Shown here: in pieces, positions 2,207-25,314 of the stretch | Layout: each line of letters begins with the position of its first letter | Numbering within the stretch: the stretch's first letter is position 1 | Origin: Cytauxzoon felis | Taxonomy: Eukaryota; Apicomplexa; Aconoidasida; Piroplasmida; Theileriidae | NCBI GenBank assembly: GCA_020283715.1 | Contig: JAIQCW010000226.1 | Location: forward strand, 1 to 25,314 | Direction: 5' to 3' | DNA: 25,314 bases | Notes under the pieces: model-generated | What the model was told of the DNA's origin: nothing | Seen by the model: only the letters and a program-made list of their open reading frames with translations | The model's database searches: none | Program-made: the position numbers and the translations under genes

Positions 2207-5200
2207 TTAATTATGCGATAAATTAACATCATTATTATTTTTATTAAATTCTCGTGTTAATAAAAGTTCAATTTCACATAAACAATTGTGGACATTAATA
2301 TGTGATGCACCAATGAAATTAGAAATCGATTTCAATAACAACAAATATAAAACAGGTAAACCACCTAATAATTTCTCTAATAAAAATATCATCAACAAAC
2401 TCACCATAAAATTTACCATTCAATTGCCATGGATTTAATGGCAATGTAGAACCACATGTAGTTATCAAACCCAATTCCTGAAATGATGATTCAATATCAT
2501 CCAATATTCCCTCATATAATGGAACCATATCCACATCCGATGTCGTCTTGCAGACAGCTTCCACCCGAGGTCCATCTTTTCCATTGCATGGAGCTTCTCT
2601 ATTTAGTTCCCCCTCCGCTTCCCTGAGATCAGCTACGGGTTCCACTCGAGGTCCAGTACTAACTCCACCTTCCTTTCCACTCGCTGTGGTGGTCCTCCAC
2701 TTGAGGTCTTTCCTGCCGTCAGCTTCTCTATTTACCTCCCCTCGACTCCCATAGATCGTCTCGGATTCCACTTGAGGTCTAGTACTAACTCTAGCTCCAT
2801 CTACACCTCCAACATCGCCACGATCTCTGGGAGTGGCATTACTCTTTAGAGATGAATAATTAGGAGAGCCACCACGGCGAGTGGAAGAAGAGTTGGATTG
2901 GACCTCGGTGGAGGCGAGTGGAAGAGAGTTGGATTGGACCTCAGGTGGAGAGGCTTCATGAATGTTGTCATTATTTGTGGAGGGTGTGTATATATGATCT
3001 TGTAATTTGAGTGATTGTAGTTGTTTGATGAAATCTGTCCAGAAGTCATTTTGTTCTTGACAGATGTCAGTGTTTAGGATTTCACATGTGGATTTGATGA
3101 CCTGTTGTTTTTGATCATGGATTAGACATTTATAATAATCATATTCTAATGATTTTTCTAATGTCCAGCTTGAATAGTATGGATTATTATTAAAATTTTG
3201 TACAATTATATAATAAATTTCATTATTTGATGGTAAAATACATTTTATTTGCTCAATTATATCATCATTTATATTTAAATTCATTTTTAATCGCTCAATA
3301 TTCGAATTTATCCCATCCATCCTACTCTTAGCCATAGAACGTATTAAAGTTAAACACCTCTTATAATTATCATCAGATGGTGAACATAATTCCATATCAT
3401 TATAATCTATACCATCTATCAATTTATAAATATAAGCCTCATCCTCTACAACTTCTCTTCCATCAACACCTACAACCTTTCCTTCGTCTTGCAGACAGCT
3501 CTCCACCAGAGGTCCATCGTTTCCATTGCATGGAGCTTCTCTATTTAGTTTCCCCTCCGCTTCCCTGAGATCAGCTGCGGGTTCCAGTCGAGGTCCAGTA
3601 CTAACTCCACCTTCCTTTCCACTCGCCGTGGTGGCCCTCCACTTGAGGTCTTTCCTGCCGTCAGCTTCTCTATTTACCTCCCCTCGACTCCCATAGATCG
3701 TCTCGGACATTTCGCCACGATCTCCGGGAGTGGCATTACCGTATACGGGGAGTGAATTGGAAGAGCTGTCTGCAAGACGAAGAGAGTTGGATTGGACCTC
3801 AGGTGGAGGATGAATGGAGAGGTATCCATCATCATTTGGGGGTATGATATTTTTGATATTGAAGTATTGGTATATAGGTTTGATTAGAGATCCGCTCCAT
3901 TGACCTATGAAATTGAGCCAGTAGATATTATCGGTATTAATATTTTTAATCCATTTATGTAGACTTCTGGTAAGAAGTGATATATTTTTATCATTAGCAT
4001 ATCTATATAATATAGAATTTAAGAATTTATGGGGATTTTTATTAAATGCCCCATTTATCATTAATCTTTTTAGATAATTTAAATCATTTGGTATATAATA
4101 ATTATTTAATGATAATAATGCATTTATTGGATTAAAATATAATAACCATAATAATGCATTTATAGCTGCTTGATCAAAATTAGATCTTACTGTATAAAAT
4201 AAATACAATTTATAATCACCATCAATTATTATATTGTCGGGTTTATTTAAATATGTGGGGCATTCAAGTTCATTATTCATTAAATTACAGAGTATATGAA
4301 AATTTGATTTAATATCATAAGAATTTAATGATTTATAATCATAACCATTATAATTATAATAATTTTTATTCATTTTCATAGCCATTTCAAATATTTCATT
4401 CATATTCATATCTGTAAATTGATTTCTAACATCAAATCCATTATTCAATGATGATAATATATCAATCTTATTAGAATAATTAACCAATCGAACAACCCAT
4501 GCCATCCTAATATTATCGAAATATATAACACGCTCATATCTCTCCAATAATTTGATACTATTATAATACTTATTTTTATCAGGCATTACACCTGAGGTCG
4601 TCATGCCGTCAGCTCCCCACTTGAGGTCTTTCCACTCGCCGTGGTGGCCTTCCTTATTTATTTCCCCCTCCGCTTCCCTGAGATCAGCTGCGGGTTCCAG
4701 TCGAGGTCTAGTACTAACTCCACCTTCCTTTCCACTCGCCGTGGTGGCCCTCCACTTGAGGTCTTTCCTGCCGTCAGCTTCTCTATTTACCTCCCCTCGA
4801 CTCCCATAGATCGTCTCGGATTCCACTTGAGGTCCAGTACTATTCTTCATTTCACTTCCATCTATACCTCCACCTTCATCGCCACGATCTCCGGGAGTGG
4901 CATTACTCTTTAGAGATGAATAATTAGGAGAGCCACCACGGCGAGTGGAAGAAGAGTTGGATTGGACCTCAGGTGGAACGGATGTTGATTGTGCATTATT
5001 TTTTGAATTATTTGTTGTAATATTTGTATATTTGTTATTATATTTATGTATAAATTGTGTATTTGGGTATGCGGGTGGTTGATAATGGAAGATTGGCCAT
5101 AATAATCTACATGTGATGAGTATGATAGCTGCTGTGATGATATGTGTAGGATGATTATTAAAAATGGTACCATATATGAGTATAGATTGATTATTATAAT

Positions 5201-8200
5201 AAGAATTTATATTATGATGATGATGATGATTGATATCATTTAAATAATCTAATAATAAATCAGATATAATAGTAATTATAATTGGTAATCTCATATAATG
5301 TATAATTCTTCTAGATAATGAATATGGATTTAATTTAATTGGTAATATATATGGATTAATAATAGGTTGAAATAAACCACATGCTATTAATTTAGCTGTA
5401 GTAATTTCTAATTTTCTACTAGAATTTGGTGCATTTGTATGTGTAAATAAATTATATGATATTTCTTCTTGTTCATTTTTAGCATAATTTGTTCTTGGTG
5501 TATATTTACCTTGTCTATATGCTGATCTTAATATCCATGTTGGTAATAAATTTACAATACTTTTTAATGGTAATCTACCTTGTATTATCCAACGTATAAT
5601 ATCATTAGATACTATACCATAACGACATTTTATTAATGATATAAATATTATTGTACATACTAATTGTAAATCTATCATTGGTGCCATTAATGATAATTTA
5701 TATGAAAAATTTTCTATACATTTACCAAAATAATATTTTATTATATAAATATATATTTTATTTATTAATTCTATCCTTATCCTATTTATAATACGACCTT
5801 TATATTTTATATTACCAATCTCTATACCCAATTTCATACATATCGATATTAATATATCTAATTCTAATGGATATCTTATTATCATATCTATATCATATAT
5901 ATCATCATCAATAACATCCTTATAATATAATTTACTCATTAATTCATCATCATCATCAACATCTATCTTACTATAACATAAACGCCATATAAAATCATAT
6001 CTATATACCGAATCCATCTATAATATTATCATTAATATAAATCATATATATTGAAATTATACATCCAATTGAAGTCATTTCATTGTCTTTCCACCTGAGG
6101 TCAGTCCTGCCGTCAGCTCCTTTATTTACTTCCCCCTCAAGTTCCCTGAGATCACTTTCGGGTCCCACCTCAGGTTAATTCCTAATCTCGCCGAGATAAG
6201 ACTAAAGTGATGGAATCTATGTTTATGAGGATAACTAAATGAATATAAATTGGAATGAAATGATGTTTAGTAAACTAGATTAAATCATCAAATTCCTTTT
6301 CAATGAGATATTAACATTAGAAATACATTCAATCGTCATTGCACAATCTTCAGTAGTTTCCCCAGAAATTCGGATTTCGCTTCAAACTTTTGGAAATTAT
6401 TAAACCAATCATAATAGATACAAAGATTATAGAAATCATTATAAGAAAGGACATTCCAATCAATTCCCCTGTTAAATCACGCAGTACATCTTTAAGATCT
6501 TGATTAGTACTATTAGGAGGTAGAGTTTTCCTAATTTTACCAGTTACAGCTGTACCAGTTGCATTTGTAATATCTTTCCATTTAGTCATGTCGGCGTAGG
6601 GATTGTAAAGCTTATCTTCAGGTGTATAGTATTTCCATTCATCGGGAGTAGTTGTACCTATGGCTACGCATATTATAATTGGTCTATCTCCGAAATAAAA
6701 GACATAGACAGCATGGACATCTCCAGTAACACTTATATTAATACTCGTCTCTCCATTTTTAAATGTGGGACTAGTCATCTTCTTATAATTAGTAGTGCCA
6801 CCACCCTTCACCTTATGTTTATAACGTGTATACGGAAATACAGGATTATCATTTTCCAAAAATACTTTAACGGTTTCACCACCACTAGTATACTCGTCAT
6901 TCGTCTTATCAATTTGTATTGTAACATTATTAGCTGTGCCACTTTCAGTTAGATTATCAGGTCTATTAGTTTCTGGTAACATTTGCTGTCCGATTCCACG
7001 GACAGCAACCCATTCCACCGAGTAGCTGCGACATCCTTATGTTTATCACTCCTATCAGTATTAACAGTATCTTTATAGACGTATCTATCAAATAACACTT
7101 TTTCAGTAGCATCATCATTACCATTCATATCTCTAGTACCATTTTTATAGGCAGTCGTTGTTATTGCTGTAATTGTAATGGATAGCTTATGACGGAATAC
7201 AGCTTCAAGTTTAGCACCAGTACCAGCCTCAACTGTTACACCTTGATCATTTAACTTCCCTAACCAATCGTTTAGTTGCCAAACTTGCAATGAATCAGTG
7301 AATCCTGTCATTTCCTTTATCCTATTTGTAATGACTCCATCTCTCCTCCCCTTCAAATTAACCATTAGAAAGATCAAGTTTTTAGACTTCAATGGAGATA
7401 GGATACATTTTCATTTCATAAACAATAAACTCACCATGTAGCATAGTTTTAATGGGTTGGATGCCTCAAGTAATCTCGTTACATTTGTAATATTGGGTGC
7501 CTTTGGTATTCTTCTAGCTGTAAGCATATCCTCTATAATATATAAAGGAAAACCAAGTGGACTACATTTACGCGATCTTGGTAATTTAAAACCTTTATTT
7601 AACCCCATCAAATTCCAATCTTTATGCGATATATAACCATCAATGTCACTATAATCATAATAATTCTCCTCCCTTTCACGTTTCCCAGGTATTTCGTCAT
7701 CCTTCAAATAACGCAATGCACAAATCGATACATACTCAAAACTTGTAAAACCCATTACAGATATCACTAAATATAAATTTATAACAAGAAAAAATGTATT
7801 ACTAAACAGTTATATACAATGGTCCTCCACCTGAGGTCCAATCCTACTCTTCTCTATCACATCTCCCTTTGTCTTGCAGACAGCTTTTCTATTTACTTCT
7901 CCCTCCGCTTCCCTGAGATCAGCTGCGGGTTCCACTTGAGGTCTTATCTTCAACGTCCGCCACGATCTCTGGGAGTGGCATTACCGTTTACGGGGAGTGA
8001 ATTGGAAGAGCTGTCTGCAAGACGAAGGAAAGGTTGATGTAACCTCAGGTGTAGGCGAGTGGGGAAATAGGGTGGAGAAGATTCGGATTGAACTTCAGGT
8101 TGGGTTAATATTATAAGTGGATACGAACCATTTTGTAGTCTTTTTGGTAATTTTGTAAGATCGGAGTCTGTTGAGATTTGTTTGGTATTTTTGATATATT

Positions 8201-8667: not shown

Positions 8668-8671
8668 CTTG

Positions 8672-9253: not shown

Positions 9254-9557
9254 TGAAGTAATTTATTCAGGCAAAGTTATGTTCTACACCGTCTATCCCA
9301 GGTGACTAGACAGTCAATGCGATAAATTCGATAAAAATCTACATTTAATAACCACAAAGAAAGTATTGAATATATAGTAATTTTATGTATAATTTAATGA
9401 TAAATGTGTATAATTTAACTCTCAAAATCTAGTCATCTTGTGCTATGTGAGGTACTCTATACAATTTTGGATGATATTCAAAATTCACGGTTCAATAATA
9501 AAATGTATATTTAAATTTTAAAATAAATAAAAATGTTATATCGCATTTGTGGTTAAA
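9254..9557. promoter_or_regulatory. Divergent intergenic region, candidate bidirectional promoter
   Basis: This AT-rich gap separates two divergently oriented genes and so must hold both 5' regions. No palindromic repeat module lies in it. I see no motif I can name with confidence; the assignment rests on position only. Confidence 0.4.
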
Positions 9558-11715
9558 ATGGAGAATCAAGGTAGATGTACCCGTCATCAGTCCGCAAAGT
9601 TGGTTGGAATTGATCCAAAATTACTGTATGGGAATAAAAGATATATGTTTGAGGATATAGAAGATGCTAAGATTAAACGTAAATCGCGTAAATCTGATGT
9701 ACGTAAATCAGTTGTTGATAAATCATCACAAGAATCTGATGTAGTGAGTGAGGATGATATATCTGATGTAAATACAAACATGTCTATGGAAGATTTAAAA
9801 TTAATGATGAATATAATATTAACTATTGTTGATGATATTTTAAATAAATTAGTTGTTGGTAATAAAATTAAGGATGAAGTGATCATTGATGATAGTAAAA
9901 AGGCTAATTATTATACTAGAGCTTCATCTTTAAAGCATGATGCTAATGTTAATAATTCTAATGTTAATATTGATGGTATATGTATAGATTTAAATGGTCT
10001 ATACAAGCTATGTAATAATGTTCTAAATTATGATAATAATAATACATTATATTTCTTTATGGAATATATCTCCATTAGAACCGAATATTATTATCGTAAT
10101 CGTGAAAATTTAATAAATTTAATGAATTATTTGCACCATAAAAATATGGTGCAAAAAAACTTAATGGGGGAATTAATAAAATTTTATACGTATGCTATAT
10201 TAGTACACCTTACAAATTTAAGAAATTCAATACCATTTGATATTAAAAAGATAGGTGTATTAAATTTTAAATACTGGAAAGAATTGAATAATAATGAAAA
10301 TTTAACATTTAATGATTTCAAACAATTACTAAATAAATATAAATTAACAAACTATATACCAAAAACAATTATACACAAAAAAAATACCAACCCGGAAGAA
10401 CAAACTAATGAATCTACAACTCGAACTGATGAAGTTACCTCTACCGTTGGTCTTGCAGACAGCTCTCCACTCGAGGTCCATCCTGCCGTCAGCTCTTTCA
10501 ATTACCTCCCCGTAGACGGTAATGCCACTCCCAGAGATCGTGGCGATGTGGGGAATTCTGGGGATAAAAAACACCATAATTTATCAAAGGGAAGGAAAAA
10601 TGTTAAACATGAAGAACGTGTTGTAGTCAATGTACCTCAAGTGGAACCCGTAGCTGATCTACGTGAAGCGGAGGGACAACTAAATAGAAGAGCCACCACG
10701 GCGAGTGGAAAAGATAGTAAAACTGCAACCTCAGGTGCAGAATCAACCACGCCAAGTGGAAAGACCAGTTCTAAGGAAGATAATGAAGGACCTAGAGATG
10801 GAACGTCTTGTAAAATGGAACATGGAGATAAGGAACAAATCATAGATGAAAAGGAAGATATATTAAAACTCGGTGTTAAATCTTCAATTAATAATTCCTT
10901 AGAAAGTAGTTATCCACCATCGTTATCTGAAGGTTCATTTTTTAATAGCCAAGAATCATTAGGATCATTTTTAGATGATGGGGATAAATTACACCATAAT
11001 GACGTAACAGGAACACTATCCATACAACAAAATACATCCGACGGTACATCGAATATTATCTCTACCATTGGTGTTACAGAAATATCACCGCCTGAGGTTA
11101 CAACCACTGTTCCACTCGGGTCTACTGTAGGTCTTGCAGACAGCTCTTCCAATTCACTCCCCGTAAACGGTAAGGCCACTCCCGGAGATCGTGGCAGAGA
11201 TGAAGGTAAGGATGTAACCTCGAGTGGAACACCCGCAGCTGATCTACGGGAAGCGGAGGGGGAAGTAAATAGAGATGGCACCACGCCTAGTGGAAAGGAG
11301 AGTATGACTGTAACCTCAGGTGGAACGGCTAGTGGAAGTAAGGTATTTTCGATGGAAGCTTTCGACAGGACCAAAACTTCAACTGCTAACTCTCTAAGTA
11401 AAAATAAGAAGTCGAACACTGCCAATATTACCAAAAAAAACTGATACTGGAAAGTCTAAAGGAGCTATGACTAAAGGACAAACCAACCTCAACTACTTGG
11501 CAGTTCCTAAAAAGACTTCTTCAATGGGTCAATCTGTCATTGCAAAGATGTTTGATAAATTCAAAAGCACAAATGACGATGTCAAAATACCCAAAAAGGT
11601 TAAACAACCAGTAGTTGAACCAACAAAACACTTGGGATACAAAGTAAAGATACGTGAAGAAGATGATATGGATGACCAAGAATCATTATCCTCTATAGAA
11701 TCTATAGATGATTAA
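9558..11715 (+). CDS. Unidentified basic protein with two repeat-encoded insertions and a frame break
   Basis: The first frame starts at the ATG at 9558 (an upstream GTG at 9549 is not a likely start) and stops at 11444. The downstream frame, shifted by one, continues to 11715. The N-terminus is Lys/Arg/Ser rich (RKSRKSD). An Asn-rich helical region follows at residues about 75-280, then two repeat insertions (10437-10750 and 11090-11340). The acidic C-terminus ends DDQESLSSIESIDD. The join is unresolved. One possible cause is a one-base slip in the run of eight A at about 11433-11440, where the reading reads naturally across. The other is an intron such as 11343-11454 (GTATTT...AAAG), which is in phase. 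I recognise no domain; basic and acidic tracts would suit a nuclear protein, but that is a guess. Confidence 0.6.
10437..10750 (+). repeat. Exonic modular palindromic repeat cluster (9558 gene, first)
   Basis: Half A (10437-10545) has GTCTTGCAGAC, then CTGCCGTCAG, the palindrome CCGTAGACGG (10510-10519) and the NATPRDRG peptide. After a host-like stretch of about 90 nt, half B (10635-10750) encodes [11 protein letters not shown] and ends with a CCACCACGGCGAGTGG cassette. Everything is in frame. Confidence 0.9.
11090..11340 (+). repeat. Exonic modular palindromic repeat cluster (9558 gene, second)
   Basis: Half A has the GTCTTGCAGAC cassette and the palindrome CCGTAAACGG (11161-11170). Half B includes CCCGCAGCTGATCTACGGG and an ACCTCAGGTGG hinge near 11314. 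It is in frame with the host, as in the first cluster. Confidence 0.9.
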
Positions 11716-11780: not shown

Positions 11781-12873
11781 TTATTCGATTTTTATTACAC
11801 CACCTGCATCTTGTATTTGTTTACCCAACTCTTCTGCTTCATCTTCATTCAAATCTACATATATAAATGGGGTATTTTATAACTATAAATACAAGTACCT
11901 TTTTTAATAGTTTTAGGATAATTTTCAACTAATTCTTTAGCTTCTCTTAAATTTAAATTACATATTGTCCTTACAATTTTAATAACTGAGATCTTCTTGT
12001 CACTAGCGAATCCAACCAATTTCAATGTTTTCTTCTTCTTCTCTTCAACCTTGACCTCTTCTATTGACGCTTTAATACAATGAATGATGGTAACTTACCC
12101 TTTTCAACCGGAGCAGGCGCTGGTTCAGATTGCGATTGTACACTCGTTGGCTGCACATTAGGCACCTGTTGACCATACATTACACCTAAAGTATGAAATG
12201 TTATCCTAATTGAAAATCTATCAATTTCACTGAGTTTCAGTTGAGGTTACAACCTTCCCTTCCACTCGCCGTGGTGGCTTCTTCCAATTACCTATCCGTA
12301 AACGGTAGAGCCACTCCCAGAGATCGTGGCAGATGTTGAGGTGTGGAGGATTAGACCTCCAGTAGAACCCGTAGCTGATCTCAGGGAAGCGGAGGGGGAG
12401 ATAAATGGAAGAGCTGACGGCAAGACGGACATCAGGTGGAGAGTTATCTGTAAGACAAGGAAGGTAGTATAGAAGTTAGATTAATCCGTCAAGTAGACAA
12501 CGCATAACTCATATGTAGTTCGACTTCAACTCACTTGAAAAGAAGTTATGTGGATGTGGAAATGGGCTTCTGCCGGGTATAAATCCGTTGTTACTATTGC
12601 TACGCTGTGACAACTTCTCTTGACATAGGTCACATAGATCGGCCGCTTCGATTAGAGTTAAATTTAATATCTCATCAACTAATTTAATAACCTAGGAATG
12701 TTAATTTAGTTAATGTGTAGAGATTATCTAACCTTATTCGATGGTTTCCTGGTATCACTAGTAGATTCCTCAACACCATCGTCCTTTAACTTTTTAAAAA
12801 TATCAAATGTACCAGAAGAATAAAATCTAAACTTTATAAAATTATTACATTTAAACAATTTTAATTTATTCAT
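11781..12873 (-). CDS. Mitochondrial large-subunit ribosomal protein bL12m (L7/L12)
   Basis: Five exons (12873-12733, 12691-12535, 12185-12099, 12069-11899, 11854-11781) give 630 nt, 209 residues. Introns are 41, 349, 29 and 44 nt, with GT-AG ends. The protein starts with a basic, hydroxylated, Asn/Phe-rich stretch ending in YSSG, typical of a mitochondrial presequence. The L12 dimerisation domain follows ([20 protein letters not shown], residues about 48-67). A Pro/Gln/Ser/Ala hinge comes next, then the C-terminal domain with [12 protein letters not shown] and a final GGVIKIE. L12 forms the ribosomal stalk that recruits translational GTPases. The presequence favours mitochondrion over apicoplast. 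The 349-nt intron is long only because it carries a repeat cluster. This gene is convergent with the 9558 gene, 65 bp apart. Confidence 0.92.
12235..12450 (+). repeat. Modular palindromic repeat cluster in bL12m intron 2
   Basis: Half A (12240-12335) has the CCACTCGCCGTGGTGG cassette and the palindrome CCGTAAACGG (12296-12305). Half B (12360-12445) has the CTGATCTCAG and CTGACGGCAA variants. It lies antisense to the bL12m gene. Nothing else explains the length of this intron. Confidence 0.88.
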
Positions 12874-13200
12874 TATTAATGTGACGAAAATTTCATCTAA
12901 ATCTTCAAACAGTTCTACACCCCCGAAGGCCTAAGATGTCTCGACGACGTACACACCTCTCTATACCTTCTATCATTGATTCTATTGTAAGCCCGTTCAT
13001 TGTATTGCAGACAGCTCTTACACTCGAGGTCCAATCCTACTCTTCATTCCACTCGCCGTGGAGGCCTCTTCCAATTACCTATCTCTAAAGAGTAAAGCCA
13101 CTCCCAGAGATCGTGGCAGATGTGATGATTGGACCTCAAGTGGAGTACCTTCAATAGACGGTGGCTTATTCACTTCTTTCCTTAGATATATAGGGTATTA
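12874..13200. other. Gap between bL12m and ORC5
   Basis: The gap contains the repeat cluster at 13010-13150 and otherwise about 180 bases of unremarkable sequence. It must hold the ORC5 3' end and the bL12m promoter; no motif is assigned. Confidence 0.5.
13010..13150 (+). repeat. Intergenic modular palindromic repeat, half A
   Basis: It carries a decayed GTATTGCAGAC, a CACTCGAGGT hinge, the CCACTCGCCGTGG cassette and the palindrome CTCTAAAGAG (13083-13092). It then has the GCCAC...GTGGC hairpin and a closing GGACCTCAAGTGG. There is no half B beside it. Confidence 0.85.
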
Positions 13201-16200
13201 TTACATGATATAGTCGTATATTTCTATTGAGAGGTCATTGCAAATGGATTTGATGAGTTCGTCAGACACCTGAGATAGTCATGAGATGAGAGATCATCAA
13301 CATACATTTAAAAAGAATTGTATATTTTGTTTGAGTAATTGTGAAATGTATGAAGGATTACTACGGAAATGATTAACCTCGGAGTGATGATTCCATAATA
13401 AACCACTGGTACCAACCGGCAACAACTTCAAATCTCTAATATCACACACCGGTCTTATATATCCCTCATCAATAACTGATAACATCTACAAAGAATTTAT
13501 TAAAAGGAAGAAACAACACCAACCTCTTGGTAGAATAACGTATCGATTTTAATATTCCTTGCGTCCGTCGTTATTAATAACCATTCAGTCAACGTTATCC
13601 ATATATTCATATCGAAATTATTACGCCTATTCCATACATTCACATCCTATAAAGATGATAAAATATAAAAGTTTATCACAAGAACCAGTTCCACGAAGTG
13701 AAATCCACCCATTTTCGTCTTGCAGATCCACTCGAGGTCGTCCTGCCGTCAGCTTCTCTATTTACATCCCCCTCAAACTCCCGTAGATCGTTCTCGGGTT
13801 CCACTCGAGGTTATAAATCTAATCTCGACGAGATACGTCTAAAGTGATGGAATCTACGTTTATTAGGATATCTCAATGAATATGATATGGAATAAAGTGA
13901 TGTTGAGGAAACTCAATAGAATCATCAAAGTCCTCTTCAATGAAGTATTTACATATGAAATACATCAAATAGTCAATGAGATATTTACATGAGTTTCCCC
14001 AGAAATTTAGTAATTCCTTGAAATTTTGGGAGTAAAAGTGAAGTTAGTGTTTGGACCTCAAGTGGAACCTGGAAGCGATCTACGGGAGCTGGAAGGGGAA
14101 GTAAATGGAGAAGCTGACGGCAGGACGACCTCAAGTGGATCTGCAAGACAAAGTAATGTGTATGAAGATAAGGTGGAGTATACAACAGCTAATTAATGCA
14201 TTCTAAAGACATCAACTAACCTTTTGTTCATTATTTTTGGTTTTTCTTTTCTTCTTTTTTCCTTGTTCATTTCCTCCATCTTTGATATGTCTTTTAAAGT
14301 ATCTGGGGTTATAAAATGTAGCGATTGATGCACCGATGATGATATATTTTGATAATCTTGATCCATTGAATTTATATTTATTGACAGTTGATGTTAGGAT
14401 GAATTTATTATTTAATTCGGATAGAAAACGTGTTTGATAATTACGCATAATAATTCGTGTATAGAAATCGATACTTTGTGTCATACTATTATCATTTTCA
14501 ATAAATTTCTTAATTGAGCTTAAATCAAATTCATTACGGAGATTCTCCATATAAATTATCCAAATTATTTTAATATAAAGTACTAGGGATTTCATATCAT
14601 TTTTATACCATTTATATACAATGGTTAATATATAATTGACATAAATATCCCATAATGACGATAGGTCATTTAAATAAACATCCTTTAACAAATCCTTTTC
14701 ATCAGGTACATTTTTACATTCTTCATCCTTAATTATTTTCGGTACTACCACTTTAGTAGATTTCTTAGGTCTACCAACAGGTCTCTTTTTAACAGATGGT
14801 GTCACATCAGTCATATTATCCGTAGATTGTCCACCAGAATTAATATCCATACAACCTACCTTTTCAGTTGGAGTCATACCACCCTCACTAAATGTTCTAG
14901 ATGATACAATGTCATTTGTATGACATTTTCTAATTGGTGTTCCATCTAAGGTTACAGCCTCCATTCCACTAGGCTCTCCAACTGAGGTCGTCCTGCCGTC
15001 AGCTCTTCCATTTACCTCCCCCTCCGCTTCCCGTAGATCAGCTACGGGTTCTCCACTTCCACTTGAGGTTATATCCATAACTCTACCTCCATCTACACTG
15101 CCCACTGCCGTGGTGCCTCTTCCATTTACCTCCCCCTCAAGTTCCCGTGGATCACTTTCGGGTAGTCCACTCCCACTTGAGGTTACATCCATAACTCTAC
15201 TTCCATCTATATCTCCACTTCCGCCACGATCTCTGGGAGTGGCATTACCGTCTACGGGGAGGTAATTGGAAGAGCTGTCTGCAAGACCAACGGTGGTTGT
15301 AACCTCAGGTGGAACGGCGAGTGGATCAGTAGATGATAGTGATTGGACCTCGAATGGAGGAGCTTCATTGTTGATATTAGAGGATGATTCGATTGAGTGG
15401 TTGTTATTATATGATGATAATGATGCAGTGGTTGTTAAATCGCTTGGCATTGAATTTAATTTTAGGTATGGGTTATTAGAGGTTGGTGTATTGTCATTTA
15501 TATTTTTATGATTTGTATCTTTACATGTGAATAATGTATAGGCGTAATCGATCAATTCTTTTTTATATTTGTCATTTATTAATTTGAGAATAGAATCTGA
15601 AATGATTTGAACATTTTTTTAGTCATTTTATATATAAAATGTGAATTTATATAAAAATCTAATCTCACCTTTATCAAGAATATCAACTTTAATGATTGGA
15701 ATATATAAATTCGCATTTAATATTTCAGTTGGTATTGGATAATGACCAACAAATATAATCGTCACTTTCCTCTTGAAATCACTGAAAATTTTATTTAAAA
15801 AAAATAATATTCAACTATGAATAAACATACGATAAATCCCTCAATGGAGCTAACAAACGCTCATGAAACTTCAATAAAATCGAAAATAACATCGGATCAT
15901 TATTCAATAAATGATGATAATTATCAATCACAATCACCAAACATTTCAATAAGTTCATATTCTTCAATGAAGATAATCTATACGAATTAACACAAGATAT
16001 TAGATCCTTTACATTAATAGGTTCTACAATGTCGGTTCCACCCGAGGTTATAGCCTTACTCTCATTTCCACTAGGCGCTCCACCTGAGGTCGTCCTGCCG
16101 TCAGCTTCTCTATTTACTTCCCCCTCCGCTTCACGTAGATCAGCTACGGGTTCCACTTGAGGTTCAATCTCAGTACTTCTTTCCAGGTTAACATTAGTGG

Positions 16201-17300
16201 TCTTTTCGGGTAATGAATTGTTATGGGGTTTATTATCTTGATCATGGGGATTATTATCATTATGAGGTTTTTTATCCCCAGAATCCCCCACAATATCCGA
16301 GGTACAATCTACATCTCTTTTTTTGTCTCGCATACGGCGTCTTTTATTTACCTTCCCTTTTATATCACATAAATCACTTCCACCTGAGGTTACAACATCA
16401 TTACCTTCTACAGTACCACCTTCCTTTGTCTTGCAGACAGCTTCTCTATTTACTTCCCCCTCCGCTTCCCTGAGATCAGCTCCGGGTTGCCCACTTGAGG
16501 TTACATTCTGACTACCTTCATCATCACCACGATCTCCGGGAGTGGCATTACCCTTTAGGGATAGGTAATTGGAAGAGGCCTCCACGGCGAGTGGAACAGT
16601 GGTTGTAACCTCTAGTGGATAGCTGTCTGCAAGAGGAAGAGAGGTGGATTGGACTTCAGGTATAGATGAAAGACGACTTCGTCTGCGAGTGGAAGACAGG
16701 GATTTATAATTACTATTGGACATTTCATTTGTTTCTTCATCGTTTGAATCGAAAATCTTTTTATTGAATCTATTCTTTCTATTTGGTGTCCTTTTAGGTT
16801 TATCTATGATTGTTTGTTTCTTTTCGATAAGTTTTATAATGAAATTGACTAGATCTTGAGGATTTTGTATATTTTGTGATAATAATCTCGTATAATTTCT
16901 ATCATCGTTACCATCAGCTGTTATGATGGATTTTATTAAATCACGCATGAATTTGCTCCATTTCCATTCAATTAACATTGATGGTGCTTCTATAGTTTGT
17001 TGTAATGAAGAAATTCCATTATTATTTATAGAATCTTATTAATGATAATATAACATACCATTAAACATCATACAATCTAAGACAGCATAAGGTACATTTG
17101 ATTCTTTTAAAAATGATTCAATCATAATACTTTTACCACAATATGGTAAACCAATTACTTGAATCATTGGTACAGGATTAGTAAACTGATGGTATTAATA
17201 TTAAGTTATATATATATCAACATACATCACCCATCAAACATGATAATTTTTTAAGATTATCACTAACATTATTATTAATACAATTGTGAAAATCTATCAT
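13201..17300 (-). CDS. ORC5: Origin recognition complex subunit 5 with repeat-encoded insertions
   Basis: Eight exons: 17300-17226, 17185-17059, 17034-15831, 15781-15669, 15596-14221, 13646-13524, 13485-13306, 13269-13201 (3267 nt, 1088 residues). Introns are 40, 24, 49, 72, 574, 38 and 36 nt. ORC5 is an AAA+ subunit of the complex that marks replication origins and loads MCM. Walker A GLPYCGKS is at residues 37-44. Walker B (LVIVIDNYHH) lies near residue 430, and a sensor-1-like strand (KVTIIFVGHYP) is on exon 4. The family C-terminal lid and winged-helix segments are recognisable (SKYIIIGASIATFYNPRYFK on exon 5; VSDELIKSICNDLS with IYDYIM at the end). Repeat peptides interrupt it at residues about 189-402, between Walker A and B, and about 595-722. 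The 574-nt fifth intron holds repeats plus a relic of a multigene-family 3' end. Without the insertions the length would be nearer 750. Confidence 0.9.
13725..13810 (-). repeat. Half B repeat module in ORC5 intron 5
   Basis: It is bounded by CCACTCGAGGT at both ends, with the CTGCCGTCAG hairpin and a degenerate second hairpin. It directly abuts the family-gene relic and pairs with the arrangement at 6090-6178. Confidence 0.8.
13811..14045 (-). pseudogene. Relic of the 3' end of a multigene-family gene
   Basis: On the minus strand 14045-13985 encodes a decayed C-terminal tail with an NFWGN motif, like the tail of the nested copy at 6350-7392. Downstream, 13811-13985 matches the 3' flank of that copy (about 6181-6349), including shared stretches such as AAAGTGATGGAATCTA. 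No module or membrane-helix sequence remains. The relic sits in ORC5 intron 5 between two repeat modules. Confidence 0.7.
14046..14160 (+). repeat. Half B repeat module in ORC5 intron 5, opposite orientation
   Basis: It starts with GGACCTCAAGTGG (about 14055). It continues with a TGGAAGCGATCTACGGG second-hairpin variant, the GGGGAAGTAAATGGAGAAG spacer and CTGACGGCAG. It closes with ACCTCAAGTGG. It is antisense to ORC5 and flanks the relic on its other side. Confidence 0.82.
14950..15330 (-). repeat. Exonic modular palindromic repeat cluster (ORC5 exon 5)
   Basis: On the minus strand, half A (15330-15220) has GTCTTGCAGAC and the palindrome CCGTCTACGG (15248-15257). Two half B units follow, each with a CCACTTGAGGT-type hinge. 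They include CCCGTAGATCAGCTACGGG (15030-15048) and the CCACTGCCGTGG cassette variant. All is in frame with ORC5. Confidence 0.9.
16030..16670 (-). repeat. Exonic modular palindromic repeat cluster (ORC5 exon 3)
   Basis: This is the largest cluster. Half A (16670-16525) has two stacked hairpin cassettes and the palindrome CCCTTTAGGG (16551-16560). One half B unit (about 16500-16380) follows, then about 220 nt of host-like Lys/Asp/Asn sequence, then a second half B (16165-16030). It adds about 210 residues between Walker A and Walker B. Confidence 0.9.
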
Positions 17301-17549: not shown

Positions 17550-17633
17550 CATCAGTAATAAATTAACTATATTTAACAATATATTGTTCTCATTTATTTA
17601 AATATACTATATTTCGACTAAAATTCGAGTTTA

Positions 17634-17837
17634 ATGACCATAATCCTCATTGTCTACACAACTATATTTATACACATGTATGATGCGTCATATAATGTAA
17701 AGGAATGTAACGACTTCTACAGTAGAGGTCCAATATCTACATCTTCTACTCCATCTTGTCTTCCAATAGGTGTTCCAACTGAGGTCTTTCCACTGCCGTG
17801 GTGGCTTCCTTATTTAGTTGTCCCTCCGCTTCCCTGA
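17634..17837 (+). CDS. Doubtful short ORF with a signal-peptide-like start
   Basis: It starts with ATG and about 15 hydrophobic residues, then a short polar stretch, then runs antisense through a repeat module and stops. The hydrophobic start could be the first exon of a lost secreted-protein gene. No downstream exon is visible in the plus direction before 18300, so I regard it as a remnant or chance. Confidence 0.2.
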   Translation: MTIILIVYTTIFIHMYDASYNVKECNDFYSRGPISTSSTPSCLPIGVPTEVFPLPWWLPYLVVPPLP

Positions 17838-17980
17838 GATCAGCTGCGGGTTCCACTTGAGGTTACATCCTCACTGCCTTCTCCATTGCCACGATCTCCG
17901 GGAGTGGCTATACTCATTAGAGATAAGTAATTAGAGAAGCTGTCTGCAAGACGAAGAGAGGTGGATTGGACATCGAGTGT
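17770..17980 (-). repeat. Intergenic modular palindromic repeat cluster
   Basis: On the minus strand, half A has GTCTTGCAGAC and the imperfect palindrome CTCATTAGAG (17913-17922, three pairs only). Half B follows with CTGATCTCAG and the CCACTGCCGTGG variant. This is the least well preserved small palindrome in the window. Confidence 0.85.
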
Positions 17981-18337: not shown

Positions 18338-18560
18338 TCCACTGCCGTGGAGCCTCTTCTATTTACTTCCCCTTCCAGCTCCCGTAGATCGCTTCCAGGT
18401 TCCACTTGAGGTCCAATGACTATACTTCCGCCACGATCTCTGGGAGTGGCATTACTCTTTAGAGATGAATAATTAGGAGAGCCACCACGGCGAGTGGAAG
18501 AAGAGTTGGATTGGACCTCGGTGGAGGCGAGTGGAACAGAGGTTGTAACCTCAGGTGGAG
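18335..18560 (-). repeat. Modular palindromic repeat cluster downstream of the FAINT-type gene
   Basis: On the minus strand, half A includes the palindrome CTCTTTAGAG (18455-18464) and the CCACCACGGCGAGTGG cassette. Half B ends with CCACTGCCGTGG. Positions 18429-18536 are identical to 2816-2923. A 90-codon frame from an ATG overlapping the stop of the upstream gene runs through it; I take that as the element's own open frame, not a gene. Confidence 0.88.
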
Positions 18561-18602
18561 AGTGTAATGGAAAATATGGATATATACTAGTCGTAGAATC
18601 CT

Positions 18603-19859: not shown

Positions 19860-20639
19860 TCTTGAAGTGATGCGATATAAATTTAATTGATGAGTATATT
19901 AGGTGATAATAATGCAAGAAATTATCCATGAATTACAAACAATGGGTCTATAACAATACACATTTACATAATACACAAATTAACTAATGTACAACAACTA
20001 TATACAACTTGCGATATTTATTACTACAAAAATAACTTATATTATACAATACAACATCTTTAAACAATAGCATTCATGTACCAACATTCAAGGAACTTGC
20101 AAAATGGGGTAAAATAATGAAGTGGGGTGAAACGATGTTTTATTTTAATTAAATGATGTATTAAAACTGGAAGGAAAGTGAAAATATCTATACAAATGTT
20201 AGGATGTTACCTTATTTCCTTGTCATATACATTTGATATATTAGATTATAATATAATTTATATGTGTCTATCATAACCATCCTTATTACATGGAGTTGAA
20301 TATCATACGATCTGCAGTATATTCATCAATTATATTACTACCATTTTTATAATTATTATTTGTATAATATTTTTATGTATAGAATTATTAGCATTCATAT
20401 ACTTTTCACATGCATTATTATTGTTGTTATATTTTAGGTGACCTTATGTGAGGAACTTGGTCATCTGACACCACTTAGGTCAAGATAAGATATATTAAAC
20501 TGTCTCATTATATAATTGTCAATATAATAATAAATTAAATAAATATATGGGTGTACCCCATAAATTTTATTGTAATTATGGGGAAATATTGGAAAGCGTG
20601 TTGTTGAACGATATAAATACCTATTCTAATAATTATAGC
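19860..20639. other. AT-rich intergenic region
   Basis: It separates two same-strand genes and contains no repeat module. A tiny plus-strand frame at about 20291 has a hydrophobic, signal-like start, and a T-rich acceptor-like tract ends near 20437. Together these could be a remnant of a secreted-protein gene, but it is not supportable. The upstream part must hold the promoter of the 18603 gene. Confidence 0.45.
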
Positions 20640-21958
20640 TTAGATAGATATTTTTATAACATAGTGATGCATAAAGAATATACCTTGCCTTGTTAATTTA
20701 CCTGTAATCAAGTTTTGAGCTTGACCGCTAATACCAGGAGTACTACCATTTGGATCTCCTCTCACGACGCTAGTTAGTTCCCATTTCTTAGCTGTATGAT
20801 ACCATTTATCATTAGTATTCACTTTAACGTATATTAATAATGGTCTCTCGATTACAGGTTGACCACTGTCCTCCTTATAATATACCCATAATTTATCTGT
20901 ATTACTAATACTTACACTTCCAGGTAATCCCTTAAGTTCATTGCCATTATGCTTAAATTTGACGTTAATTGAACTAGCATTACTACTGCTATGTTTATAT
21001 GCTACATATCCTGTAGGTACATTAGGATCGGTATTAGTTTTCTTCTCAACGGTAATTTGTGTGGTGCCTCCCGAACCCGTGGTATAACTACTACCACTTG
21101 TTCCTTCAGTATCTGTCTTCTCTATATGAATTACATTATGTCCATTCGCCCAATCATTGAGTTCATCGAGATGCATTAAAAATGTGTGATTATTATTATC
21201 AGGAGCTCCATCAATACCACCTTCTAAAGACCATTGATTATCACTATCCTGTGCAGGATTCGTTTTCTTGTAATAATCGTATCCACTTTGTTTAACAACA
21301 CATATAAACAACGGTTTAGTGTTATCTTCACCATAATATACGTGAACATATTTGACATCATTTGCAGTAATATTACTACCACCACTTTGAAGAGCCTGAT
21401 TTCCCTTTTTAAGATTAGCACTTTTCATTTTCTGCTTATTCGTCAAATGATGAGAGTATCTCGTAAAGCCTCCCTTGGGATTTCCCGAAAATTCCAAGAC
21501 TGTAACCTGTTCACCGCCAGCACCACTTGTATAATCCTTCTTCTGTTCAATATTTATGTCAACAGCAGTAGCATGCTCTCCAGAAATTGTAGGTAATTCT
21601 GGTGGTTTAGGTGGTGGTTTCATTTGCATCACTTCGTTCCATACCATAACGAAAATTCAACCCTCTTACAATTGGTTATCACGGCATCCTCTTTTGTACC
21701 GGACTTTTTATAACCGCCACCTAAAACTAACCACGCTGAATCATCAGGATTAGTATCATTCCAACCTTCAGCTAGGTCCAGAAGATTATATAAACCTTTG
21801 ATAAATGTACAAATAATGAAGCATGTAAGAAAAATTGCAACCTTATGACGTAATCTACTCCCATAATCAGGTGCCGTATTAAGATCAATATCACTAGATT
21901 GTTTAAATCCAGTATTTTGTGGACGTACTGGTCTATTAAATTCCCAATCATTATCCAT
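20640..21958 (-). CDS. Surface-type multigene-family protein with N-terminal membrane segment
   Basis: Exon 1 is 21958-21670. A 38-nt GTAAGA...GAAG intron (21669-21632) joins it in phase to exon 2 (21631-20640). The overlapping frames at 21629-21647 are therefore splicing, not a frameshift. The N-terminus is hydrophilic (RPVRPQNTG) and followed by one hydrophobic helix at residues about 42-58, suggesting a type II or signal-anchor topology. A Pro-rich linker (PPPKPPEL) leads to two modules with signatures YVHVYY...KPLFICV and LWVYY...RPLLIYV. Similar modules occur at 343-2205 and 6350-7018. The C-terminus may be wrong: a GTATAT donor just before the stop could lead to another short exon. The site of action is inferred to be the parasite surface or a secretory compartment. 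Confidence 0.72.
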
Positions 21959-21984
21959 CTTAATGTATCTCTATATCCATTTAT

Positions 21985-22135
21985 TCGACTTGTACCGAGA
22001 TCATTCCACTCTAGGTCTAATCCACCTCTCTTCGTCCTGCACCTGAGGTCTTTCCACTCGCCGTGGTGGCCTTCTCTATTTACTTCCCCCTCCGCTTCCC
22101 TGAGATCGCTTCCAGGTTCCACTCGAGGTCCAACT
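21985..22135 (-). repeat. Intergenic modular palindromic repeat, half B
   Basis: It shows the CACCTGAGGTC hinge, the CCACTCGCCGTGGTGG cassette, the TTCTCTATTTACTTCCCCCT spacer, a CTGAGATCG second-hairpin variant and the CCACTCGAGGTCC hinge. It lies close upstream of the start of the 20640 gene. Confidence 0.85.
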
Positions 22136-22484
22136 AATAATCTATTCATTAATTGAATTATAATCGCATAATTATCTTCCCTCAATCATTTACAACTCAT
22201 GTATAATATTATAATAATTTATAGAAGTTAGTTAAGTTAGTATTATTATTAGTATAATATAGTTACTATAATGGCTTCAGTTCATGTTAGTAATTATATA
22301 GTATATATCTTATTATAATTATTTATATAATTACGTATATATCATCATACAACTATATATCATCCTTCAATTGTATTAATATAGTATTATATGTTATATT
22401 AAGAGAGATATCATCAATAGACAATAAAAATGTAGTGAAAATGGTGTTTATTACCCCCGATAATTCTGGGGTATATTAGGTGTA

Positions 22485-22625
22485 TTGATTAGACCTCGAG
22501 TGGAACCCGAAGCTGATCTCAGGGAAGCGAAGGGGGAGGTAAATAGAAGAGCTGTCTGCAAGACGAAGAGAGGTGGACTAGAGGTAAGAGGATTGGACCT
22601 CAGGTGGAGGACCTCGATTGGATAG
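22485..22625 (+). repeat. Intergenic modular palindromic repeat, half B
   Basis: It begins AGACCTCGAGTGGAACCCG, then has CTGATCTCAG, the GGGGGAGGTAAATAGAAGAG spacer and GTCTGCAAGAC. It closes with GGACCTCAGGTGG near 22597-22609. Confidence 0.87.
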
Positions 22626-22712
22626 GTCTTCGATATATAAATTACAGTAGATATATATAATATGGGTGTATGTTTTATGTATTCATTTGTATAATATAGA
22701 GTAGTAATTAGA

Positions 22713-25314
22713 TTAAGGGTTTGTTACAGTGATATTAAGATTGAATTTATGATAGAGTAATTTAGCTTTATTAATTAATTGATTATTGAAATTATATAAT
22801 GTTTTTATAAATATTTTATTATTTATTGTATTATATGATATAAAATCATTATATAAAGTATTAAATAATAAATTTCTTGTATTTATATTAATAATATCTA
22901 ATGTATTATTAATTGTTGTTACATTTTTATAATCTATTAATTGATTTTGTAAATATAATGTATTACTTAATCTTACACTAAATAATATTATCTTCTCTAT
23001 ACAATTTTCCATTATTATTATCAATTTATCCATTAATATAAATGATGGAATATGGGGTAAAATAACACTATAATTTTTATCATTTTGTAATATATTTTTA
23101 TAATTTGTATTAATATCTAATAATAATTTCTTCTTATCATTATTATTATAAGTAAATTTAAATCTAGATGATTTCATATCATTAATTAATTTCATTAATA
23201 ATATACCAATCTCAATTATATTATTCTCAATCAATAATAATAATTCCAATGTTACATCATTATTAATATCATCATCAATGTCCATCAATAATATTTCCTC
23301 ATCCATATCATAACCAGATTTACATCCTATATACTCTATTCCATTCACATTTCCACCTGTGGACATCCTGCCGTCAGCTCTACCTGATGTCTTTCTCTTG
23401 TCTTGCAGACGGCTTCCTCTATTTAGTTGTCCCTTCGCTTCCCTGAGATCAGCTACGGGTTTTCCACCAGAGGTTACAGTACGACTCTCGTTGCCACTGC
23501 CGTGGTGGCTTATCTCATTTACCTCACCTCGACTCCCATAGATCGTCTCGGATTCCACTTGAGGTCCAATCCAACTCTTCATTCCACTCGCCGTGGTGGC
23601 CTCTCTATTTACCTCACCTCGACTCCCATAGATCGTCTCGGATATTTCGCCACGATCTCCGGGAGTGGCTATACCCATTTGGGATAGGTAATTGGAAGAG
23701 CTGACGGCAGGATGGACCTCAGGTGGAGAGCTCTCTGCAAGAGGAAAAGAGTTTGATCGACTTTCTGTATAAGTATCATCGGGTATGAAATCATTGGGTA
23801 GTATAGTGATGATATTTCGATTCATTTTATTTGAGCATGTAATGAGTTTATTTTTAGTGGGTGGTAAAATATCATTTAATTGACGTAGTAGATTATTTTG
23901 TAATAGGAAATCTAAATATAAATCAATACTAGATATAAATATATATAATAATCTTTGTTTATATATAGATATTATACCATTCTCATTATTATCCGATTCT
24001 ATCTCATTAATATCAATCGGCCTAATAAAATATGATATATTATTCAATCCATTCTGATATATCAATAATAAATTATTAAAATATCCATACTGTAATCGCA
24101 TCATTAATCCAATACTAAAATTTTCACTCGAAGTGATATCCTTACATCCATTCCACTCGCCTCCACTCGAGGTCCTTCTTTTCCACTCTCCGTGGCGGCC
24201 TCCACCCGAGGTTACATTCCTGCCGTCAGCTTCTCTATTTACTTCCCCCTCCGCTTCCCGTAGATCAGCTACGGGTAGTCCACTCGAGGTCCAATAACTA
24301 CTCTTCATTCCACTCGCCATTCCACCTGAGGTCGTCTTGCAGACAGCTTCCTTATTTACTTCCCCTCGACTCCCATAGATCGTCTCGGATAATCTACCTC
24401 CACTTGAGGTCCAATAACTACCATCACAACCTTCGCCACGATCTCTGGGAGTGGCATTACCCATTTGGGATAGGTAATTGGAACAGCTGTCTGCAAGACC
24501 AACGGTGGTTGTAACCTCAGGTGGAACGCCGAGTGGAAAACTGGTTGTATGACCTAGGGTAGAGGTAACCTCGGGTGTTGTGTCATGATAATAATTTTTC
24601 AATAATTTGAGATAGAGTATCATTTCTTCGATGTATGCGAGATTGGGTATGGTATTGGCGATGAATTTGATTCTAATGATGGTATGTTTGATAAATTTGA
24701 TATTATTGAAATGAATGAAGGATAATAATTTACAATGTAAAAGATGGAAATATGAACGTTGTATAAATTTAGAATTAATAATATAACAAGGATACCATTT
24801 ATAAATATTATCATTTAATAAATTAATAAATGAATTATTTAATAATTTATTATTATTTTTATTAATTAAATAATTATTAATAAATATATTTTTTGGATTT
24901 ATAATAAATAATGGTTGTAAATAATAATTTAAATATGAAAATCTATAAAATTTCATAATAATATTTATATTATTTAATAAATTTATATTATTAATATATA
25001 TTATATCAATAATATAATCAATACAACCATATATAATCTTTATTAACATATTCTTATTATTATAATCAATATATATACCATCTTCACTTATACATGATAT
25101 CATATACTCTATTGATATATCCATATCATTAAAATTTATATATAACATATCCAATATATCACATAACCAATCATCCAAACCCATAAATACTACACCCTCC
25201 ATACCTATACTCAATTTATTGTCTACATCTGAGGTCTTCCACTCGCCTCCACCTGAGGTTACAACCTTGTCTTTGTCTTGCAGACAGCCTCTTCCATTTA
25301 CTTCCCCCCTTCGC
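22713..25314 (-). CDS. Unidentified Asn/Ile-rich protein with two repeat insertions, 5'-incomplete
   Basis: The stop is at 22713-22715. The first internal ATG is at 25202, but the frame stays open to the window end through a further repeat module, so the true start is probably outside. Beyond the repeats the protein is dominated by Ile, Asn, Leu, Tyr and Lys in long amphipathic helices, with no signal peptide or clear membrane helix. I recognise no family; a helical scaffold or complex subunit is the most that can be said. Two large repeat clusters (24580-24120 and 23760-23345) are translated in frame and split the host sequence into three parts. Codon composition switches sharply at their edges. 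Confidence 0.6.
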   Translation of the reverse strand, partial: RRGEVNGRGCLQDKDKVVTSGGGEWKTSDVDNKLSIGMEGVVFMGLDDWLCDILDMLYINFNDMDISIEYMISCISEDGIYIDYNNKNMLIKIIYGCIDYIIDIIYINNINLLNNINIIMKFYRFSYLNYYLQPLFIINPKNIFINNYLINKNNNKLLNNSFINLLNDNIYKWYPCYIINSKFIQRSYFHLLHCKLLSFIHFNNIKFIKHTIIRIKFIANTIPNLAYIEEMILYLKLLKNYYHDTTPEVTSTLGHTTSFPLGVPPEVTTTVGLADSCSNYLSQMGNATPRDRGEGCDGSYWTSSGGRLSETIYGSRGEVNKEAVCKTTSGGMASGMKSSYWTSSGLPVADLREAEGEVNREADGRNVTSGGGRHGEWKRRTSSGGEWNGCKDITSSENFSIGLMMRLQYGYFNNLLLIYQNGLNNISYFIRPIDINEIESDNNENGIISIYKQRLLYIFISSIDLYLDFLLQNNLLRQLNDILPPTKNKLITCSNKMNRNIITILPNDFIPDDTYTESRSNSFPLAESSPPEVHPAVSSSNYLSQMGIATPGDRGEISETIYGSRGEVNREATTASGMKSWIGPQVESETIYGSRGEVNEISHHGSGNESRTVTSGGKPVADLREAKGQLNRGSRLQDKRKTSGRADGRMSTGGNVNGIEYIGCKSGYDMDEEILLMDIDDDINNDVTLELLLLIENNIIEIGILLMKLINDMKSSRFKFTYNNNDKKKLLLDINTNYKNILQNDKNYSVILPHIPSFILMDKLIIIMENCIEKIILFSVRLSNTLYLQNQLIDYKNVTTINNTLDIININTRNLLFNTLYNDFISYNTINNKIFIKTLYNFNNQLINKAKLLYHKFNLNITVTNP
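23345..23760 (-). repeat. Exonic modular palindromic repeat cluster (22713 gene, second)
   Basis: Half A (23760-23655) uses the CTGACGGCAG cassette and the palindrome CCCATTTGGG (23674-23683). Several half B units follow, two of the SETIYGSRGEVN type and one of the ADLREAKG type. All are in frame with the host. Confidence 0.9.
24120..24580 (-). repeat. Exonic modular palindromic repeat cluster (22713 gene, first)
   Basis: Half A (24580-24435) has GTCTTGCAGAC and the palindrome CCCATTTGGG (24460-24469). Half B units follow, one with CCCGTAGATCAGCTACGGG at 24257-24275. Extra CCACTCGAGGT hinges near 24172 and 24282 suggest nested or tandem insertion. Confidence 0.9.
25225..25314 (-). repeat. 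Modular palindromic repeat, half B, cut by the window end
   Basis: It has a CACCTGAGGTT hinge at 25250, the GTCTTGCAGAC cassette and the CTTCCATTTACTTCCCCCC spacer, then the window ends. The frame of the neighbouring gene is open through it. Confidence 0.82.

Follow-up and report, generated by a model that had tools for sequence, protein, structure and literature searches.

Palindromic elements which are dispersed in intergenic DNA and likewise sit in frame within unrelated, often conserved genes are described for Rickettsia (Rickettsia palindromic elements, RPEs) and, as coding palindromes, for Wolbachia (PMC2229807, PMC2996958). Short hairpins which alternate in orientation and form mosaic clusters are likewise reported for the REP/REPIN (BIME) systems (PMC2817692), and inverted repeats inside eukaryotic coding sequence for the mitochondria of Nematomorpha and of Magnusiomyces (PMC6649704). 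Here, a family of hairpin repeats is described which was encountered in a stretch of 25,314 nucleotides of Cytauxzoon felis (GenBank assembly GCA_020283715.1, contig JAIQCW010000226.1; this whole stretch is referred to as the window). An earlier note on the window had compared these repeats to the RPEs, and for this piroplasm host the analogy proved apt: palindromic units are dispersed in intergenic DNA as well as in open frames, one reading frame is favoured, and copies are missing from orthologues (in two genes). In our view, a selfish mobile hairpin element has probably spread through the nuclear genome of C. felis.

Abundance and structure of the hairpin units

The window represents one contig (C131) of an assembly of 8,623,106 bases in 181 contigs, in which the core motif GATCTNNGGGA occurs 7,145 times, whereas its reversed control is found 14 times. 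A 21-mer of the A module (pattern [GA]CCACTCCCNGAGATCGTGG[CT]) has 1373 + 1343 = 2,716 genome matches with at most one mismatch (reversed control: 0), and a 24-mer of the other module, B, has 2,636 with at most two mismatches (control: 0). This confirms the hairpin repeats as a genome-wide family with a copy number far above chance. Piroplasms are commonly regarded as poor in mobile DNA.

Local counts refer to a sample of 265,314 bases (3.1% of the assembly), which is composed of contiguous, non-random stretches, i.e., the window, C4:1-120000, C37:40001-120000, and C9:1-40000. It holds 181 clusters of 35,578 bases altogether (13.4% of its DNA), with a GC content of 0.50-0.52 as compared to 0.28-0.31 outside the clusters (C4, C37, and the window). 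A cluster was considered exonic if it is crossed by a stop-to-stop frame in which 30 or more non-repeat codons lie to either side, such that clusters in shorter exons are counted as non-exonic; the 29 clusters with neither an A nor a B match were excluded from the orientation and frame counts. Non-exonic clusters are found on both strands (66 and 61); 72 are oriented like the neighbouring frame and 63 against it. The statement of the earlier note that intergenic and intronic copies occur in both orientations holds for the window, too, where non-exonic A modules are situated on the forward strand at 12310 and 13097 and on the reverse strand at 7959, 17888, and 18430 (the last within a short frame of 96 amino acids).

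The two module types which had been regarded as separate, one with the recurrent peptide NATPRDRG and one with a second recurrent peptide of 11 residues, turned out to be the same hairpin unit on opposite strands; both contain GATCTNNGGGA. This motif is flanked by a 3-bp stem, the positions of which form Watson-Crick pairs at 259, 259, and 258 of 268 sites, whereas 96, 99, and 139 would be expected if both sides were independent (in this count, exonic sites, 63 of the 268, were flagged with a looser margin). At least seven complementary stem types exist among these sites, the commonest being CAC/GTG (96), GCT/AGC (96), AGC/GCT (39), GAC/GTC (9), AAC/GTT (6), GAT/ATC (4), and AGT/ACT (3). In a gap-free alignment of 80 units, out of 123 distinct ones among 266, 95.0% of the cells are paired, as opposed to 58.7% after shuffling, and the stem covariation score amounts to 0.948, as opposed to 0.286 for shuffled and at most 0.155 for slid alignments, where shuffling leaves the relatedness of the units unremoved and sliding retains it. 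The stems of the H2 slot covary as well (CTCT/AGAG, CCGT/ACGG, CCCT/AGGG, CCCA/TGGG).

Within a unit, the stem-held GATCTNNGGGA is followed by a GTAAAT-like stretch, by a variable hairpin X, and by a near-palindrome of 12 bp, TCCACYTGAGGT or variants of it. The inner stem of X is GCC/GGC in 69 cases, GGC/GCC in 24, and the mismatched GGC/GGC in six (among the rows listed); the X class anchored as GCT-N4-GCA-N4 is fully complementary in 116 of 237. Since X type shows no significant dependence on unit class (p = 0.08), the units appear to be modular.

Within clusters, A and B units lie on opposite strands in 93 of 93 pairs, and A precedes B in 61 of 61, so that a cluster constitutes an inverted dimer, outside of which extra X-T layers may be stacked. 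An AT-rich core repeat, TTTCCCCAGAA, situated in the window at 6182-6394 and 13819-14031, forms a composite that resembles a miniature inverted-repeat transposable element (MITE).

Covariation of this kind is also what would be expected of a structured RNA, or of an element of the chromosome, that has a function and is selected at each site, e.g., a hairpin in RNA processing or regulation. Broken pairs are indeed rarer in exonic (2/180) than in non-exonic copies (33/618; p = 0.012), and the exonic cluster at 4587..4981, taken as RNA, folds far better than its shuffled versions (z = -5.15). The DNA fold of a non-exonic cluster reached a z of merely -1.82, a value not comparable like for like with that of the RNA fold. 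Wobbles are few in the main stem of the B unit (12 G-T and 10 A-C among 552 cells, with no strand bias), which speaks against an RNA; in the X stem (X-P1), 12 G-T stand against one A-C, nine of them representing a single variant (only pairs with at least three of four positions in Watson-Crick pairing were counted). The order of the stems in X and B is compatible with an H-type pseudoknot. A scan of the window with Rfam yielded no family near its gathering score: there were four matches up to an E-value of 5, the best at 0.76, two of which overlap clusters (MIR1023 with 22.1 bits against 90, snR76 with 20.8 against 55). Given in addition thousands of copies, with the non-exonic ones in either orientation to their neighbours, selection for a function at each site appears improbable to us, and the spread of a selfish element is preferred.

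Copies within reading frames

The earlier note had reported nine in-frame copies in four genes of the window, all in the same orientation and frame. Correspondingly, nine A modules are found in the long frames (three in the TAF1B-like gene, two in the '9558 gene', two in the exons labelled ORC5, and two in the '22713 gene'), all of them in sense and in phase 0; k-mer clustering gives 11 exonic runs in these genes, because some copies are split or partial. In the sample, 34 of the 181 clusters are exonic and spread over 18 open frames. A tabulation of strand and frame, as the note had proposed, places 38 of 39 exonic A and B modules in sense and phase 0, where an open frame is already required for a cluster to count as exonic. 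The remaining module, a B unit, is antisense to its host frame of 1,055 codons. Among orientable clusters, the frame of the modules themselves is open in each of the 25 exonic ones (one of which has a host read from the opposite strand) and in 39 of 127 non-exonic ones, and the A-B distance is divisible by three in 14 of 14 exonic but 18 of 47 non-exonic pairs. Much of this pattern is forced, since an exonic cluster by definition lies in one stop-to-stop frame.

Around non-exonic modules, the sense frame S0 contains 1.0 stop per 100 codons, whereas the other five frames contain 2.6-7.5. Hydropathy is -0.84 in S0, -1.37 in the stop-rich sense frame S2, and -0.11 to 0.33 in the antisense frames. 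As S2 is more polar and yet excluded by its stops, it is the stops, and not polarity alone, that account for the favoured frame.

Recurrent repeat peptides are found in many frames, as they would be if the repeats were an ordinary repetitive protein linker common to many genes, with the palindromes arising as a side effect of the codons used. This explanation is already contradicted by the non-coding majority, for 147 of the 181 clusters lie outside long open frames and, among the 127 non-exonic clusters that can be oriented, just those 39 have an open frame; together with the lack of the peptides in relatives, this renders it extremely improbable, and we retain the spread of a mobile element.

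Orthologues lacking the repeat but carrying the same peptides, which would point to ordinary conserved sequence, were looked for. The relative of the TAF1B-like protein in Theileria equi (47% identity over 26% of the query) has no insert at any of the three sites; three T. orientalis sequences likewise contain none, although they are poorly aligned there. The name of this protein is derived from the T. equi relative, which carries a precomputed PF20644 label, a family of the TAF1B type. Furthermore, the gene of the splicing factor YJU2 (PF04502) possesses a B-type insert that is missing in 8 of 8 aligned relatives, seven of which are from named piroplasms, the eighth being a protein close to T. 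equi (among the best 120 of 450 matches). In sequence comparison, the exonic copies of these two genes are thus shown to be insertions that are absent from the orthologues.

Apparently, the exonic copies are read as extra protein stretches, and the surface antigen cf76 bears on this. A protein search with residues 86-216 of the 468-codon frame of the window, covering proteins of 0.55-1.75 times the query length, gave two matches at E ≤ 0.001, both of them C. felis cf76. The frame of cf76 in the assembly is identical to the deposited C. felis protein of 723 amino acids and carries two clusters. It is by this identity that the window was assigned to C. felis; a search of the assembly for COX1 gave no match. 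Tarigo et al. (2013), whose assembly comprised 361 contigs, 9.1 Mb, and 31.8% GC and was probably filtered to give the one analysed here, report 723 amino acids for the sequenced isolate and about 706 for most others, call the gene single-exon, and amplified its open reading frame of 2,172 bp from cDNA of DNase-treated RNA (PMC3748084). As this length includes both copies, they are kept in the mRNA, judged by length and not by the sequence of the cDNA; the splicing-out of exonic copies, considered in the earlier note, is accordingly contradicted for cf76. A recombinant region of cf76 with a copy reacts with sera of survivors (PMC3748084) and, if it equals the last 225 residues, contains the second cluster. 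As a vaccine antigen, cf76 was not highly immunogenic in a later study (PMC10058880).

The two deposited cf76 alleles are identical past alignment column 305, but in and around the first cluster they are distinguished by substitutions as well as by gains and losses that keep the frame. The second cluster holds a tandem X-T duplication of 33 bp (L033:2045-2111), which probably corresponds to the '30 bp' repeat of natural isolates that is reported in two copies for 10 of 11 samples and in one copy for the remaining sample (PMC3748084).

Long hairpins in coding sequence might also remain untranslated, either because splicing removes them or because the ribosome bypasses them, as it does the palindromes in the mitochondrion of the yeast Magnusiomyces (PMC6649704). 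Such copies would need no open frame, yet 38 of 39 modules share one strand and phase, and the full-length cDNA of cf76 excludes splicing there, though not bypass. We regard untranslated copies as very improbable and continue with insertions that are read through.

Probable mobility and proposed growth within genes

According to the earlier note, only insertions that keep the host frame survive. In-frame copies agree with this, but as an explanation it is incomplete. About 60% of the non-repeat bases of the sample fall in open frames. Random insertion followed by survival was modelled by placing the non-exonic clusters in random phases and orientations; the ratio of exonic to non-exonic clusters should then be about 0.05 (0.014-0.026 when the minimum cluster size is set at 150-200 bases), whereas 0.197-0.279 was observed. 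Coding copies therefore exceed what random survival would leave by a factor of about 4-20, an excess inflated to an unquantified degree by the decay of non-coding copies and by missed small exons; moreover, survivors are predicted in the sense frame in merely 49-75% of cases. Exonic clusters have longer A-B distances (median 127.5, n = 14) than non-exonic ones (63, n = 46; p = 9e-5), and where a sibling exists in the same frame, it is the best match of an exonic cluster in 10 of 24 cases, as compared to 0.38 expected. Excess, longer linkers, and sibling matches suggest duplication and growth in frame within the gene on top of survival.

A frame of 1,629 codons in C37 (joined coordinates 28528-33414, L023/L024) contains seven exonic runs, and within-gene duplication is suggested there by three near-identical copies which share the flanking peptide KVGGDEVD.

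Concerning the mechanism, pairing of the folded hairpin may be required at copying, via a single-strand or template-switch step, and would be neither maintained nor repaired after insertion. Template switching at quasi-palindromes is named in the literature as a route to perfect inverted repeats (PMC6649704). Of the stem pairs, 3-4% are broken (about 1.7% of the bases, assuming a single change in each broken pair), as compared to changes of 0-4% at nearly fixed unpaired positions (among the 164 BLAST matches listed), in what is a rough comparison. As broken pairs are about as common as those changes, continued repair of stems after insertion is unsupported, and selection would act at the copying step. 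In exons, the single stop-poor frame would be the main one tolerated, such that copies become polar linkers, and once present they may also multiply and lengthen in frame inside their gene. Tentatively, and with less confidence than in mobility as such, one might envisage a nuclear system of hairpin mobility that recognises only the folded shape and the 11-base loop motif, with stems that drift yet stay complementary, and with a coding-competent form that grows in frame and adds polar segments, including to an isolate-variable surface antigen.

Several results weigh against such a mobile element. Mobility was not directly seen but is deduced from dispersal and from allele differences, and support for translation of the copies is indirect, consisting of the cf76 transcript and a seroreactive recombinant region. 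A frequent X class with GACG (43 GACG/GGAC, plus kin) is unpaired in the proposed stem. X type agrees between both arms of a cluster in 24 of 63 cases as compared to 16.3 expected (40 of 2000 shuffles reach 24), so that the slots are not wholly independent; the tendency is weak, and a strong coupling of the arms by X type was rejected. Best matches outside the own frame are exonic for 8 of 34 exonic clusters (non-exonic for 26), near the background of 0.188, such that a coding lineage is unsupported by best matches. Target-site duplications, looked for in 75 clusters at lengths 2-10 and offsets 0-3, show no excess over shuffled pairs, with some uncertainty as to where a cluster ends. Neither a Y1 (RAYT) transposase nor Phage_integrase (tyrosine recombinase) nor rve was found in searches which detected 5/14, 14/14, and 6/14 of their controls, respectively, and in which MULE, hAT, mariner, and Helitron were not included. 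RVT_1 was found at one locus only, in a frame of 1,010 codons (C56:73693-74436) that is perhaps telomerase. A PiggyBac search was uninformative, as it detected none of its controls. With regard to a SINE, which would have a head derived from a tRNA and a partner reverse transcriptase, that single RVT_1 locus was observed, and a tRNA search of the window found no gene (with bacterial settings, which would miss a diverged relic).

That neither an excess of target-site duplications nor rve was found in these searches also speaks against an ordinary non-autonomous DNA transposon (of the MITE or the Foldback/Mutator type) with terminal inverted repeats and a DDE transposase encoded elsewhere, in which the stacked T-X layers would resemble the modular arms of Foldback. 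Its termini could well be the long, imperfect, layered inverted repeats seen here; 12 of 16 AT-rich cores in the sample have inverted B units on both sides, forming composites of B, core, and B; clusters outside exons lie on both strands; and T motifs mostly stand left of their own reverse complements within a cluster (patterns listed; with several exceptions). Recognition of ends, though, leaves the covarying internal stems unexplained, and we consider a transposon of this type unlikely, albeit the most serious competitor of a hairpin element copied in its folded form.

The window and known systems

The features of the window are given in Table 1.

Table 1. Hairpin clusters, host frames, and related features of the window
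Feature	Position	Strand	Remark
Hairpin unit GTT-GATCTACGGGA-GCT	124..150	+	close to window start; one stem pair broken
TAF1B-like host gene	2322..6017	-	1232-aa open frame with three clusters
TAF1B-like exonic cluster 3, in frame	2542..2952	-	missing in T. equi relative
TAF1B-like exonic cluster 2, in frame	3479..3810	-	missing in T. equi relative
TAF1B-like exonic cluster 1, in frame	4587..4981	-	missing in T. equi relative
B unit + second AT-rich core copy	6089..6394	.	core 6182-6394, 78% to 13819-14031
Cluster, TAF1B-like gene	7824..8051	-	non-exonic or at exon edge
'9558 gene'	9531..11441	+	637-codon open frame with clusters
9558-gene exonic cluster, A half	10389..10548	+	
9558-gene exonic cluster, B half	10634..10766	+	
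9558-gene exonic cluster, A + B	11091..11329	+	
Non-exonic cluster	12242..12480	+	inverted dimer
Non-exonic A cluster	13005..13145	+	
Composite non-exonic element	13714..14152	.	two inverted B units, arms 13714-13822 / 14044-14152 (84% complementary), AT-rich core between
468-codon open frame	14215..15618	-	ORC5 label unsupported
Exonic cluster in 468-codon frame	14982..15353	-	one A + two B units
406-codon open frame	15818..17035	-	ORC5 label unsupported
Exonic B-only cluster in 406-codon frame	16037..16164	-	
Exonic cluster in 406-codon frame	16377..16697	-	A + B
Non-exonic cluster	17822..17965	-	
Cluster adjoining end of FAINT-domain frame	18359..18560	-	
Non-exonic B cluster	22021..22132	-	
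Non-exonic B cluster	22492..22610	+	
'22713 gene'	22716..25313	-	866-codon open frame
22713-gene exonic cluster	23364..23746	-	
22713-gene exonic cluster	24149..24571	-	

The identity of ORC5 given in the earlier note to the frames of 468 and 406 codons could not be upheld, as neither Pfam nor PDB supports it. At 7824-8306 on the reverse strand, a T. equi-like frame (SPEYIKNTKQI) enters the A half of a cluster and then stops, apparently at an exon edge of the TAF1B-like gene. A motif near GGGGATAAAAAACCYCATAA, read as GDKKPH or GDKKHH, is situated at 10560 and 10980 (forward) and at 16260 (reverse) and recurs in frames of C4 and C37; seven of nine matches in the sample lie in long open frames, all seven on the same strand and in the same phase and within about 110 bases of hairpin clusters. 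The frame at 18603-19898 contains a FAINT domain, the distribution of which points to Theileriidae. Repeated segments similar to YKH...YVYY...PLLICV are found in the frames 307-2205 (forward) and 20640-21656 (reverse), which have no Pfam match and perhaps represent a secreted piroplasm family.

One hairpin family makes up about 13% of the sampled DNA and lies partly in reading frames, and its thousands of natural copies offer material for testing the copying and recognition of folded DNA. It further allows one to ask whether nuclear genomes gain new protein segments from selfish DNA. For C. felis itself, gene prediction, orthologue calling, and the choice of antigens should account for the inserts, of which the vaccine-tested cf76 (PMC10058880) carries two.

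Among the top papers listed in our literature searches, which covered few subscription papers and no preprints, we found no account of this repeat in Cytauxzoon or of a nuclear in-frame palindromic family. Modular inverted arms are known from Foldback and Mutator-like elements such as Tm1, which resemble the C. felis element in this respect; it differs from them in that no excess of target-site duplications and no linked transposase were found. The earlier note knew of no eukaryotic counterpart. This stands for nuclear genomes as far as that literature goes, but organellar counterparts are described: in Nematomorpha, the palindrome arms encode conserved parts of proteins, and in Magnusiomyces the elements are untranslated (PMC6649704), whereas the C. 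felis element is nuclear. The REP/REPIN systems share with it the alternating hairpins, which in C. felis are strictly inverted pairs, but they are associated with RAYT, a Y1 transposase of which our search of C. felis found none, and some C. felis copies lie within genes and in frame; REPs moreover carry a tag at one end (PMC3733652), whereas the conserved part of the C. felis unit is the loop. Compared to the RPEs, for which intragenic insertions in 19 reading frames are reported (PMC2229807, PMC2996958), C. felis possesses thousands of units, and these are modular, stacked hairpins with interchangeable, covarying stems in a eukaryotic nucleus; the comparison is one of descriptions, not of sequences. 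The C. felis element thus works like the Rickettsia palindromic elements, yet it represents a variant of its own, distinguished by its covarying stems and by its place in the nucleus of a eukaryote.

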